From: Frondihabitans sp. 762G35
GTDB lineage: Bacteria > Actinomycetota > Actinomycetes > Actinomycetales > Microbacteriaceae
Direction: 5' to 3'
Assembly (NCBI RefSeq): GCF_002074055.1
Contig: NZ_CP014619.1
Location: 496,001 to 560,000 of the forward strand
DNA: 64,000 bases
Below the pieces are notes generated by a model. It was given only the letters and a program-made list of their open reading frames with translations, was not told the origin of the DNA and ran no database searches. How positions within the stretch are numbered: position 1 is the first letter of the stretch; each line of letters begins with the position of its first letter. Positions 2,166 through 12,352 of this stretch are shown here, piece by piece. Both the position numbers and the translations under genes were made by a program.

Positions 2166-3871
<1,706 letters not shown>

Positions 3872-3891
3872 GTCCGAGCTGATGCGTGAAG

Positions 3892-3921
3892 GCCGGTTCC
3901 CCCTCGGGGGAGCCGGCTTTT
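3892..3921 (+). terminator. Terminator after groEL
   Basis: An 11-12 bp GC-rich hairpin with one wobble pair is followed by TTTT, 20 bp after the groEL stop. Confidence 0.75.
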
Positions 3922-3995
3922 CGCGTGTGCGCTGGGGGTGCGTGCGGTGGGGCGGGCAGGGTGGCCGGCGCGGGCACGGGGTGCGCGCCGTAACT

Positions 3996-4890
3996 CAGGA
4001 AGTCGGGGCGGGGCATCCTGCGGTGCGTGCCGGTGGCGGAGGTTCTTCCTGCATCACGTGCTGCGCAGGAGCTATGTTCCTGAGTTGTGTTGCCGCGTCC
4101 TGCGGTGGGTGTGCGTGCGGGACGGGGGTGGCGATGTTGCTTCGGCAGGAAGTCTGGGCCGGGCATCCTGCGTTGCGTGCCCGCGAGAGCGGTCTTTCCT
4201 GCATGGAGCGTCTCGCAGGAGCCGCGCTCCTGCGTTGTGGCGCGGAGGTCCTGCTTTACGGGCGGGCGCGTCGGGCGGTGAGACCGCGTCGCCCGCATCG
4301 CACGGATGCGCGGCACGGGGGCGGGGCGGTGGCGGGAACGTCGCTTCGGCAGGAAGTCTGGGCCGGGCATCCTGCGGTGCGTGCCGGTGGGGGAGGTTCT
4401 TCCTTCGTTAGGTGCTGTGCAGGAGCTGTGTTCCTGCGTTGTGTCGCGGGGGCCCTGTCTTACGGGCGGGCGCGTTATCCGGCGGCACCGCGTCGTCGGC
4501 ATCGCGCGCGTGCGGCACGGGGGTGGCCCTGGCGTCCGGGATGTTGCTTCGGCAGGAAGTCGGGGCGGGGCATCCTGCAGTGCGTGCCGGTGGGGGAGGT
4601 TCTTCCTTCGTTAGGTGCTGTGCAGGAGCCGCGTTCCTGCGTTGTGGCGCGGAGGTCCTGCTTTACGGGCGGGCGCGTCGGGCGGTGAGACCGCGTCGCC
4701 CGCATCGCACGGATGCGCGGCGCGGGGGCGGGGCGGTGGCGGGAACGTCGCTTCGGCAGGAAGTCGGGGCGGTGCATCCTGCGGTGCATGCCCGCGGGCA
4801 GGAGTTCTCCTGCGTTAAGCGTCTCGCAGGAGCCGTGTTCCGGCGTTGTGGCGCGGCGGTCCTGCGTCACGGGCCGGCGCGACGGGCCGC
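3996..4890. repeat. Intergenic array of about 204-bp degenerate tandem repeats rich in CCTGC palindromes
   Basis: Five units begin with CAGGAAGTC at 3,996, 4,146, 4,350, 4,553 and 4,757, giving spacings of 150, 204, 203 and 204 bp; the first and last units are incomplete. Each unit carries GCATCCTGC near its start and a hairpin of the form CAGGAG-NNNNN-TTCCTG around its middle, plus further TCCTGC or GCAGGA words in alternating orientation. Units 2 and 4 are nearly identical over their last 120 bp, whereas units 3 and 4 match over their first 60 bp, so the copies have exchanged sequence. A 203-bp and a 150-bp step break any reading frame, and I see no ribosome sites, so open frames across it are not credible genes. 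It fills the whole gap between the convergent groEL and histidine-kinase genes. Function unknown. Confidence 0.85.
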
Positions 4891-4903
4891 GGCTCGGGAC
4901 GGG

Positions 4904-6610
4904 TCAGGACGACTGCACGGCGGGGCGCGGCGCGGACGCGACGCGGGGCGGGGAGCCGGGGGTGAGCTGCTCCGGCACGAGGGGGAAGCCGACGCGGAAC
5001 GTCGCCCCGCCGCCGGGGGTGTCGAAGACGTCGACCTCGCCGCGGTGCGCGGCCACGATGCCGGAGACGATCGCGAGGCCGAGGCCGCTGCCGCCGGTGT
5101 CGCGGGTGCGGGAGGTGTCCGCGCGCCAGAAGCGCTGGAAGATCTTCTCGCGGATCTGCGGCGGGATGCCCTCGCCGTGGTCGATGACGTCGATGGTCGC
5201 CATGCCGCGGCCCGGATCGGCCTGGACGGCGAGCTCGATGGGGGAGTCGGAGTCGGTGAACCGCATCGCGTTGCCCATGAGGTTGGTGACCACCTGCCGG
5301 ATCTTGTTCTCCTCGCCGAGCACGACGGGGCTCGAGGCGTGATCGCTCAGCGGGTTGTCGGCGAAGTCGTCCGCGGCTCCTGCGGTCTCGCCCGTGGCCC
5401 GGGCGCGGCGGCTGCGGAGCCGCGCCAGCGTCGCTCCGGCGAAGGCGATGGGGCCGGTGACGTTGGCGGCGTTCTGCGCGTCGGGAAGCAGCTCGGGCTC
5501 GATCGGGAGCTCGTCGCCGGGCTCCGCGACGGGCTCGCGCACGATGACGCGGATCTCACGGTCGGTGTTGGAGGCCATCGTGTCTAGGGCCGAGTCGCGG
5601 GCGATCGTGACGAGGTCGACGGGGCCGAGCTCGAGCGGCTTGGACTCGTCGAGGCGGGCCAGCTGCAGGAGGTCCTGCACGAGGCCGCCCATGCGGATGG
5701 CCTCCTTCTCGATGCGGTCCATGGCCTGGGCGACGTCTTCGGGCTTCGTCAGGGCGCCCATCCGGTAGAGCTCGGCGTAGCCCCGCAGCGAGACGAGCGG
5801 CGTGCGGAGCTCGTGGCTGGCGTCGCCGACGAACCGCCGCATCTGGTCGATCGTCTTCGCGCGGTCGTCGAACGCCGAGTCGATCCTGTTCAGCATCGTG
5901 TTGAGCGAGCGGTTGAGGCGGCCGACCTCGGTGTTCGGCGTCGTCGCGTCGAGCCGCTGGCTGAAGTCGCCGTCGGCGAAGCGCGCGGCCGTGTCTTCGA
6001 CGTCGCGCAGGGGCGCGAAGGTCGAGGTGACCAGGAGCCGCGTGAGCGCCGCCCCGAGGACGATCACCGAGAGTCCGAACCCGAGGAAGATGAAGGTGAA
6101 GCGCGCGATCGTGTTGTTCGTCTGCGCCAGGTTCGTGCCGGTGATGACGGTGTAGTACCCGGTCGCGTTCGTGGACTGGTTAGTCAGCGTCTCCTGGATC
6201 GCGAAGAGCCGCCACTCCTGGGAGTGGTCGGCGTTGAACGCGGTGGAGATGCCGACGAGGCTCTGGATGTCGGAGGCGCCCGAGATCGCGAGCTGAGGGG
6301 CGGACCCGGTCGGGAGGTCGCGCTCGTTGTCGCAGAGGCGCCGCCCCGTCGAGTCGAAGATCGCCAGGTAGCTGGTCGGCTTGTAGCCGAAGTTCGCTGT
6401 GCAGTACGAGTCGTCGAGGGTGAACGTGGTCGTGTTGCGCGCCGCGATCGGGAGGTTCTCGTTGACCTGCGTGTAGAGGTAGGTGCTCAGCACCGTCATG
6501 GTGCCGAGCCCCGCGACGAGGAGCCCGAGGGTCACCAGAGTCACCGTGATTCCGGTGATCTTGGTGCGGATGGAGATCTCGTTCCACCACTGGGACAGAC
6601 GCCTGTGCAT
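4904..6610 (-). CDS. Sensor histidine kinase (PhoR/TcrY-like) with an insertion in the ATPase domain
   Basis: A 568-residue membrane kinase paired with the response regulator upstream at 6,674. Transmembrane segments are at about residues 18-46 and 171-194, enclosing an extracytoplasmic sensor domain of about 125 residues. A HAMP domain (195-247), HisKA with phosphoacceptor H266 in SHELRTP, and HATPase_c follow, with N447 in the N box, DHGEGI at 477-482 and GGSGLGLAI at 506-514. The family norm is about 480-500 residues; the excess is mainly an Ala/Glu/Pro-rich insert at about 360-428, between the start of the ATPase fold and the N box. The stimulus cannot be read from the sequence. The ATG at 6,610 lies 63 bp after the regulator stop, so the pair forms an operon. 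Confidence 0.9.
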   Translation of the reverse strand: MHRRLSQWWNEISIRTKITGITVTLVTLGLLVAGLGTMTVLSTYLYTQVNENLPIAARNTTTFTLDDSYCTANFGYKPTSYLAIFDSTGRRLCDNERDLPTGSAPQLAISGASDIQSLVGISTAFNADHSQEWRLFAIQETLTNQSTNATGYYTVITGTNLAQTNNTIARFTFIFLGFGLSVIVLGAALTRLLVTSTFAPLRDVEDTAARFADGDFSQRLDATTPNTEVGRLNRSLNTMLNRIDSAFDDRAKTIDQMRRFVGDASHELRTPLVSLRGYAELYRMGALTKPEDVAQAMDRIEKEAIRMGGLVQDLLQLARLDESKPLELGPVDLVTIARDSALDTMASNTDREIRVIVREPVAEPGDELPIEPELLPDAQNAANVTGPIAFAGATLARLRSRRARATGETAGAADDFADNPLSDHASSPVVLGEENKIRQVVTNLMGNAMRFTDSDSPIELAVQADPGRGMATIDVIDHGEGIPPQIREKIFQRFWRADTSRTRDTGGSGLGLAIVSGIVAAHRGEVDVFDTPGGGATFRVGFPLVPEQLTPGSPPRVASAPRPAVQSS

Positions 6611-6673: not shown

Positions 6674-7366
6674 TCAGGCCTTGGAGGCCTTGAGCATGTA
6701 GCCGAAGCCGCGCTTCGTCTGGATGATCGGCTCGGCCGAGAACTGGTCGAGCTTGCGGCGCAGGTAGGAGATGTAGCTCTCGACGATGCCGGCGTCGCCG
6801 TTGAAGTCGTACTCCCAGACGTGGTCGAGGATCTGGGCCTTCGACAGCACGCGGTTGGGGTTGAGCATCAGGTAGCGCAGGAGCTTGAACTCCGTCGGGC
6901 TGAGCTCGATCGCGGTGTCGCCGATGGTGACCTCGTGGGTGTCCTGGTCCATCGTGAGCTCGCCGGTGCGGATGATCGCGTCTTCGTCTTCGTTCATGGT
7001 GCGGCGGAGGATCGCCTTGATGCGCGCGACGATCTCGTCGAGGCTGAACGGCTTGGTGACGTAGTCGTCGCCGCCGACGGTGAGGCCGGTGATCTTGTCT
7101 TCCGTGTCGTCTTTCGCCGTGAGGAAGAGGATCGGTGACGTGTAACCCGACGAGCGGAGGCGCTTGGTGACGCCGAAGCCGTTCATGTCGGGGAGCATCA
7201 CGTCGAGGATGATCAGGTCGGGCTCCTCTTCGAGGACCGCGGAGATCGCCTGGGCACCGTTGCCGACGGCCCGCACGGCGAAGCCGGCGAAGCGGAGGCT
7301 CGTGGTGAGCAGATCGCGGATGTTGGGCTCGTCGTCGACGATCAGGATCTTGGGGCCATCACTCAT
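6674..7366 (-). CDS. OmpR-family response regulator (PhoP-like)
   Basis: A 230-residue regulator: receiver domain (residues 5-120) with acidic pocket D11/D12, phosphoacceptor D55 in DVMLPD, and K105 in TKPFS, then a winged-helix OmpR-type DNA-binding domain (about 135-228) including LSPTEFKLLRYLM. By recall it resembles mycobacterial PhoP throughout. It is the first gene of a two-gene operon with the histidine kinase and probably controls transcription in response to that sensor. Its target genes are not evident here. Confidence 0.92.
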   Translation of the reverse strand: MSDGPKILIVDDEPNIRDLLTTSLRFAGFAVRAVGNGAQAISAVLEEEPDLIILDVMLPDMNGFGVTKRLRSSGYTSPILFLTAKDDTEDKITGLTVGGDDYVTKPFSLDEIVARIKAILRRTMNEDEDAIIRTGELTMDQDTHEVTIGDTAIELSPTEFKLLRYLMLNPNRVLSKAQILDHVWEYDFNGDAGIVESYISYLRRKLDQFSAEPIIQTKRGFGYMLKASKA

Positions 7367-11805: not shown

Positions 11806-12352
11806 CGACTCCCGGCGCGCGATCCTGGAGCCGCTGACCCGCGAAGCGCTCCTCGAGGTGACGCGCGACGACACCATCGGAGACCTGCTCGACATCGTCG
11901 ACGAGGGCGAGGGCGTCTCGACCGTCACCTACTCGAACACCCTGCCGGGCTACCCCGGCTGGGTCTGGACCGTCAGCGTCGCCACCGTCGAGGGGGCCGA
12001 GCCGACCGTCCTCGAGACGGAGCTGCTGCCCGGCGAGTCGTCCCTCCTCGCGCCCGACTGGGTGCCGTGGGTGGAGCGTCTCGCCGAGTACGAGGCCTCG
12101 CAGGAGGCGGCGGGCGCGCTCGCAGCCGAGGGCGAGTCCGACGACGACGAGTCGGATGACGACGACGACGAGTCGGATGACGACGACGATGCCGATGAGG
12201 ACGACGACTTCGAGGACGAAGACGACGACGAGTCGGACGACGAAGACGAAGACGACGAGCCCGACGACGACCTCGGCGACGACGAGTTCGACGGGGTCGA
12301 CGTCGAAGAGGCCGCCGAGGCCGGGGGCCTCGACGAGCCGGGCCGCCGCTAG
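11798..12352 (+). CDS. DUF3027 family protein with a long acidic tail
   Basis: A 184-residue protein. Residues 1-105 match the DUF3027 family by recall, including TYSNTLPGYPGWVWTVSVA and LLAPDWVPWVERL. The last 75 residues are almost purely Asp/Glu with Ser, encoded by GACGAC-type repeats that are prone to slippage. Function unknown. It is coupled to the cold-shock gene upstream, a pairing I recall from related genomes. Confidence 0.82.
   Translation: MADDSRRAILEPLTREALLEVTRDDTIGDLLDIVDEGEGVSTVTYSNTLPGYPGWVWTVSVATVEGAEPTVLETELLPGESSLLAPDWVPWVERLAEYEASQEAAGALAAEGESDDDESDDDDDESDDDDDADEDDDFEDEDDDESDDEDEDDEPDDDLGDDEFDGVDVEEAAEAGGLDEPGRR

Follow-up and report, generated by a model that had tools for sequence, protein, structure and literature searches.

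Several families of described bacterial repeats offer points of comparison for the tandem array that separates groEL from a histidine kinase gene in Frondihabitans sp. 762G35. The ERIC (or IRU) sequences of enterobacteria are intergenic, measure 127 bp and are conserved across species both as sequence and as an imperfect palindrome, and the ends of Tn7- or Mu-type transposons present several transposase binding sites in a row. For BOX and the modular small repeats, we know of no instance in which a word is switched while its spacing is held fixed. According to the excerpted text of PMC3049150, BOX and other modular elements are small interspersed repeats, and the corresponding text of PMC3733652 places REP sequences often in unidirectional and convergent gaps. 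The closest system in terms of logic is that of the REPINs, portrayed in the excerpted text of PMC3116915 as dispersed extragenic elements that also form clusters, with conserved ends held at a fixed distance around a less conserved spacer and a diversity ascribed to co-evolution with a trans factor.

The array lies in a stretch of 64,000 nt (the window; NZ_CP014619.1, 496,001-560,000) of the 762G35 genome, here labelled G000, which we infer to belong, together with its relatives G001 to G006, to the genus Frondihabitans. Its meaningful repeat unit is an element of ~125 bp within each period of ~204 bp, composed of five sites with an AGGA core (A-21-B-31-C-31-D-20-E), of which A to D are direct and E is inverted. 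The spacing amounts to ~2, 3, 3 and 2 helical turns, which places them all roughly on one side of the double helix. Like the REPINs of the PMC3116915 excerpt, the element is dispersed, has sites at fixed distance with a freer spacer and invites the proposal of a co-evolving trans factor; it differs from them in having five sites (four of them direct) instead of two, in showing no consensus hairpin beyond word-to-word pairing and in being found at gene junctions shared across species. Membership of the REP/RAYT family is ruled out by the absence of the Y1/RAYT transposase (PF01797) from all seven Frondihabitans genomes, in a search whose control gave a signal in 5 of 14 genomes. Words A and E correspond to the terminal inverted repeats expected of a MITE. 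ERIC sequences are similar in length and also intergenic, but the Frondihabitans element keeps mainly its site cores and their spacing. As opposed to Tn7 or Mu ends, all of its sites fall within 125 bp, with no gene between them and a mere 20 bp from D to E, and the switching of words at fixed spacing sets it apart from BOX, which it resembles as a small interspersed repeat. No description of the element appeared among the papers listed in searches of open-access literature (repeats in the genus, the family and the phylum, and phased repeats), in agreement with a preliminary description of this DNA that knew of no element of such form.

Layout of the groEL/kinase array

Five tandem units occupy the groEL/kinase gap of G000 (3989-4890, no strand assigned), with starts at ~3989, 4139, 4343, 4546 and 4750 and successive steps of 150, 204, 203 and 204 bp, each step comprising one ~125-bp element and a GC-rich linker. 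The array is thus real and much as first reported, with a period of 203-204 bp and one unit shortened to 150 bp, and the flanking open reading frames bear out the convergent setting that had been proposed for it. On one side lies groEL (2186-3871, plus strand, open reading frame as listed); on the other lie a sensor histidine kinase gene (4904-6610, minus strand) and, upstream of it, a response regulator gene (6674-7366, minus strand), both named from reading of their translations. The putative intrinsic terminator of groEL, a GC-rich hairpin followed by TTTT that was read by eye (3892-3921, plus strand), precedes the array and lies outside it, and a comparable hairpin is present 3' of groEL in 22 gap sequences compared by eye, among which two junctions occur twice. 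The idea that the array supplies C-rich DNA for Rho-dependent termination of the kinase transcript had a skew of 0.22 behind it, other stretches of the window reaching 0.29, and was set aside.

All five copies of the element read on the minus strand. The copy nearest groEL (3985-4115) has A at ~4098, B at 4078, C at 4047, D at 4016 and the inverted E at 3996, spaced 20/31/31/20, and the second (4135-4266) has them at 4249, 4228, 4197, 4166 and 4146, spaced 21/31/31/20. Some sites are degenerate in the remaining copies: the third (4339-4470) combines altered A (CAGGG) and C (AAGGA) sites with B at 4432, D at 4370 and E at 4350; the fourth (4542-4673) has A at 4656, B at 4635, an altered C (AAGGA), D at 4573 and E at 4553; and the fifth, on the kinase side (4746-4877), has A at 4860, an altered B (CCGGA), C at 4808, D at 4777 and E at 4757. 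The sequence GCATCCTGC, which the preliminary description had attributed to every unit, is indeed present in all five, while the CAGGAG...TTCCTG hairpin also attributed to each is exact in three, unit 2 carrying CTCCTG and unit 5 TTCCGG. The picture of CCTGC palindromes in alternating orientation is better replaced by one in which each unit has four direct sites and a single inverted one. The corresponding words are strongly concentrated here, with 25 occurrences of GCAGGA/TCCTGC in the 900 bp of the array against 74 in the other 63.1 kb of the window, and the window total of 99 compares with a mean of 42.85 and a maximum of 59 in shuffled sequence.

The relationships among units also follow the first account in most respects. 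Units 2 and 4 are nearly identical in their second halves (103 of 104 positions) and match at 78 of 100 in their first halves; the first halves of units 3 and 4, reported as identical, are close (95/100) without being so, and their second halves agree at 75 of 102. Exchange between copies is upheld by these mosaic matches of unit 4 to units 3 and 2, and unit 4 looks recombinant, one part of it resembling unit 3 and the other unit 2. The array was also correctly judged non-coding, because steps of 203 and 204 bp cannot share one reading frame. The groEL array is best explained by one dispersed intergenic element of ~125 bp having been amplified five-fold at this locus.

Dispersal, spacing and words in the genus

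As a query for BLASTN, the whole array matched nothing but itself in G000 and gave two matches, both short and marginal, across the other six genus genomes; the other copies were missed because it is mainly the sites that are conserved. When the array units were turned into a profile, one extra copy of G000 came to light, the sixth, which is diverged and lies at 1.2017 Mb, likewise between convergent genes; weak matches of 17-19 bits in three other genomes of the 150 searched were treated as chance. A search with the derived word located a second G000 array, which comprises four units (the fourth has lost its E site) and has clpX on one side and, convergent to it, an M3-type peptidase gene on the other (names from translations). 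Outside the window, G000 carries at least 12 further copies at eight other loci. The pattern CAGGA-N15-17-CAGGA-N25-27-CAGG yields 12 matches in G000 versus 1 for the reversed control, and 0-4 in the six congeners, with 0-4 for the control. A loose hairpin, GCAGGA-N3-12-TCCTGC, was rejected as a description of the element, its 36 matches in the own genome being not far above the 25 of the control.

Full-length matches in the relatives were obtained with a 15-copy profile run over seven Frondihabitans genomes. A genus profile built from 36 units (including 5 of G001, 4 of G004 and 6 of G005) gave, at a cut-off of E <= 0.01, 20 matches in G000, 28 in each of G001 and G004, 40 in G005, 11 in each of G002 and G003, and 2 in G006. 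Those of G001, G004 and G005 far outnumber the training units drawn from them, and 17 of the 20 in G000 fall below 1e-10, at nine loci. Among the matches listed, 20 stretches of G005, 12 of G001 and 8 of G004 were retrieved. The two matches of G006 are weak and partial, and no unit scoring 18 occurs in the seven loci of that genome that were scanned. For the same profile, 19 of 32 genomes of other genera lack any match and 13 show one to three (best 6.4e-4), which are weak and chance-like. Hence, although the CAGGA array itself is seen in G000 alone, the element is clear in five other Frondihabitans genomes, at odds with the local accident that the preliminary description associated with absence from all relatives.

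The layout of the element is markedly rigid. Over 15 copies at seven loci of G000, A-B measures 20 or 21, B-C 31, C-D 30 or 31 and D-E 20. Among these copies the linkers and spacers vary, and it is the site set that recurs. A scan allowing up to 2 bp of jitter per step and demanding a score of at least 19 out of 20, with the last step taken from the AGGA start to the TCCT start, read exactly 21/31/31/19 in 31 of 31 G005 units at 21 loci; 14 of 15 units in G001 and all 7 in G004 deviate by at most 1 bp per step, and 2 of 3 in G002 read 21/31/33/19 with jitter free. The threshold bears on the counts: the 14 units of G000 omit loci L267 and L268 (score 18) and the fourth clpX unit, 6 of the 8 G004 loci taken held a unit scoring 19 or more (L345 and L347 score 18), and 2 of the 4 G003 loci taken reached 19 (L276 and L252 score 18). 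Run on own-genome samples plus other Microbacteriaceae loci (1.86 Mb when both strands are counted, with L004 and L006 of Frondihabitans excluded), the same scan found no unit. A tighter version over 80 loci (1.46 Mb, both strands) returned a single match, in the groEL/kinase gap of Frondihabitans PhB188 (L006, taken to be G005), a locus that had been picked by its kinase gene and not by an element profile, and four altered spacings returned none in the same 80 loci and 1.46 Mb. The strict pattern of five AGGA cores at 21/31/31/20 thus recovers elements almost free of background within the stretches covered by the scans. A word-agnostic layout script proved too strict, finding no match even in loci with a known copy. 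Conservation ends sharply on both sides of the element, and A and E, inverted relative to each other, are the words at its limits.

The invariance of AGGA is in part a matter of construction, since that core is built into the scan and the profiles; the base preceding it is not. This base, 5' of AGGA, depends on the genome: 67 of 70 G000 sites have C, 72 of 75 G001 sites and 34 of 35 G004 sites have G, and 114 of 155 G005 sites have A, so that the dominant words are GCAGGA in G000, GGGAGGA in G001 and G004 and CAAGGA in G005. Words resembling AAAGGAGGA prevail in G002, and TTCAGGA-like words, close to those of G000, in G003. With one unit taken per locus (47 units of G000, G001, G004 and G005), 204 of 235 sites carry the commonest base of their genome, a figure reached by none of 5000 label shuffles (maximum 150). 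There are exceptions, for G005 mixes A and G, unit L260 of G003 is G005-like and the sites of G002 vary. On the other hand, the spacers appear to be free. Between different loci within species, cores are 94.5% identical and spacers 38% (130 pairs); between species the values are 81% and 34% (487 pairs). Unrelated DNA at this GC content is estimated to agree at ~0.29, and the spacers are therefore close to random. The use of one word per genome over many loci calls for either a trans factor or genome-wide copying, and recent copying is disfavoured because the spacers have diverged. That the words of related species seem to have switched together while the spacing held suggests that a DNA-binding protein reads the sites. 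As a natural experiment, the six related genomes might thus offer a view of how the specificity of a DNA-binding protein could shift jointly with that of its dozens of sites.

Location at gene junctions

When gaps are classed with a crude codon-usage gene finder, the 55 that bear the element divide into 27 convergent, 20 codirectional, 7 divergent and 1 open, none being called genic, against a background of 10 convergent, 59 codirectional and 24 divergent among the 93 gaps that reach 120 bp in a 284-kb sample of G000. Seven of the nine G000 loci were checked, five of them convergent and two divergent.

Five gene junctions are occupied by the element in more than one species (two to four), and the words mostly differ between the species. 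They were identified by comparing neighbouring genes between species, with pairs below 50% identity dropped as paralogues; the pair L309/L340 was also dropped, because the element of L340 stands ~1.1 kb away from the shared gene. Four species, G000, G001, G003 and G005, carry the element at the 3' end of a gene for a biotin-dependent carboxylase (named from its translation), always with A adjoining the carboxylase gene, and with three words among the four, G000 and G003 mostly having C before AGGA (the G003 unit scores only 18). The groEL/kinase junction holds it in G000 and G005, with A on the kinase side in both; no unit was seen by eye in the corresponding gaps of G001, G002, G003, G004 and G006, or by script in those of G003 (Leaf304) and G006 (L141). 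At the junction of L339 (G001) and L323 (G005), A adjoins the shared gene in both species. Orientation hence agrees in three of the five junctions, is mixed in one (L314 of G005 and L328 of G001, the latter carrying units in both orientations) and opposite in one (L271 of G000 and L326 of G005). By rough reckoning, chance would be expected to produce well under one shared junction per species pair, and the copies at shared junctions may be related by common descent. Nonetheless, the flanks of these junctions do not align, usually with one neighbour gene matched, and common descent is for this reason indistinguishable from repeated insertion at favoured gaps; the opposite and mixed orientations at L271/L326 and L314/L328 fit re-insertion.

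A predicted composite binding site and its alternatives

The reading of the element as a target for a DNA-binding protein is favoured because the words change together over sites and loci and because no consensus RNA fold extends beyond word-to-word pairing; DNA binding is also what best fits an arrangement in which the sites share roughly one helical face while their spacers vary freely. We propose, with about an even chance of being right, that the element is a composite binding site on which a protein-filled, phased complex forms behind genes and insulates neighbouring transcription units. The site would consist of four direct copies and one inverted copy of a genome-specific word. A sequence-specific DNA-binding protein, presumably encoded elsewhere and diverged between species, would fill the five positions, and the filled sites would assemble into a single compact nucleoprotein complex, as a rule 3' of genes and most frequently in the gap of a convergent pair. 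Such a complex would most likely insulate transcription units by stopping or holding back read-through and head-on transcription, and arrays, that of groEL included, would multiply it. We infer the trans factor from the word pattern, and likewise its co-evolution with the word, while the insulating role is guessed from where the element sits. The preliminary description had raised a transcription barrier or a nucleoid focus, both of which are possible, and a structured RNA; its interpretation is partly supported overall, with a DNA-protein complex as the best reading.

A more general proposal, which we advance tentatively and stop short of calling probable, is that these elements represent a new class, a five-site phased protein-binding cassette kept at gene junctions genus-wide, all copies of which would change their words together as the reader protein evolves. 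PRDM9 is a fast-evolving recognition system, and the proposed cassette could be likened to it as a bacterial counterpart. If the complexes do act at gene ends, they would provide high-GC actinobacteria with a new way to separate convergent genes.

The main rival is a multi-site miniature transposon. The element would then be non-autonomous, with A and E as terminal inverted repeats, B to D as extra transposase-binding sites and a word that follows the transposase of each species; gene gaps would be tolerated landing sites, and arrays would stem from tandem insertions or local amplification. The 2 to 40 matches per genome, the sharp ends with terminal inverted words and the one copy that adjoins another tandem array and seems to sit within it agree with this scenario, as does the resemblance in logic to REPINs, in which conserved ends flank a freer spacer at a set distance (excerpted text of PMC3116915). 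The opposite or mixed orientation at two of the five shared junctions points the same way, but junctions shared with different words would require repeated hits on the same gaps. Moreover, spacers are near random even within a genome, unlike those of recent copies, no target duplication is apparent by eye in the listed flanks, and PF01797, the one transposase family searched for, is absent from all seven Frondihabitans genomes. Taken together, we consider transposition a possible but unlikely origin of the pattern.

The predicted complexes might instead serve chromosome organisation, through bridging or domain marking, rather than local transcription. A multi-site phased layout spread over the chromosome would suit such a role, and codirectional and divergent gaps are also used. 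The excess of convergent gaps (27/55) fits a local role better, however, and renders the organisational one rather improbable.

It is quite improbable that the element acts as RNA, be it as a structured or protein-binding transcript, such as a sponge with GGA sites for a CsrA-type protein, or as a hairpin terminator. CsrA sponge RNAs carry GGA motifs that CAGGA resembles, and the location at 3' ends would be in keeping with this role, but exact site spacing combined with free spacers is ill-suited to a sponge, and Rfam gave no match up to E 1 for positions 3800-5000 of the window. The whole array folds better than its shuffles (z of -4.68 on the plus strand and -2.94 on the minus strand, 20 shuffles each), and so do most of 18 single units, with a negative z in 15 on the A-to-E strand (mean ~-1.5, range -5.00 to +1.25) and in 17 on the other (mean ~-2.1, range -6.05 to +0.17). 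The folds of single units differ, however, and the sole stem in the consensus of 15 and of 36 units joins word B to the inverted E through 6 or 7 pairs (-4.8 and -6.4 kcal/mol); a stem closed by the two outermost words, A and E, is seen for several single units, but no A/E hairpin appears in the consensus. Two-sided changes occur in 3 of the 7 pairs of the 36-unit consensus, but they are not specific to RNA, because a shared switch of words would also give them. The structured RNA of the preliminary description hence retains a tendency of single units to fold somewhat better than shuffled sequence, and is weak at best. Finally, a neutral minisatellite or assembly accident with no element behind the array deserves next to no credence and is refuted as a full explanation, in that, although exchange between units is evident and this array was seen in one species only, the same layout recurs in five other species and, within a genome assembled as one contig, at nine loci.

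Other repeats occur in the same genomes. Positions 12133-12293 of the window contain short-period repeats of CGACGACGAC type. G000 also harbors a second, larger family of dispersed palindromes, GAGACTCCACRAC, present 144 times (52 + 92) against 0 for the reversed control and often in tandem, with steps of ~82-108 bp among the 100 places listed; clusters lie at L143:8261-8700, L144:2733-2875 and L149:18404-18625. No exact GAGACTCCA occurs in the window. At 2.44-2.46 Mb of G000, L204:1501-1790 and L208:1126-1590 contain two-site elements of ~80 bp, GGCAACTCAGG ... CCTGAGTTGCC, the word of which is close to that of the array and which are possibly a relative with only two inverted sites. By eye, the groEL/kinase gaps of several Frigoribacterium loci and of L139 show other palindromic or tandem repeats, for example GTGGACACGACACCACG in L010, runs of CCGCGCAGCACCCCGAAACC-like sequence in L015, and two copies each in L012 (~80 bp) and L139 (~65 bp). 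One five-site element seems to break up a run of tandem ggcacgggggacggcgcttcgcgcgtcg-type units in L234:1150-1640 (G000, ~1.4233-1.4238 Mb). From L192:2180-2345 onwards (G000, ~1.2024 Mb), a tRNA-like stretch, ctgtggcgcagcttggtagc, appears twice and is followed by a possible integrase gene, and the whole looks like an integrated element beside the 1.2017-Mb copy.
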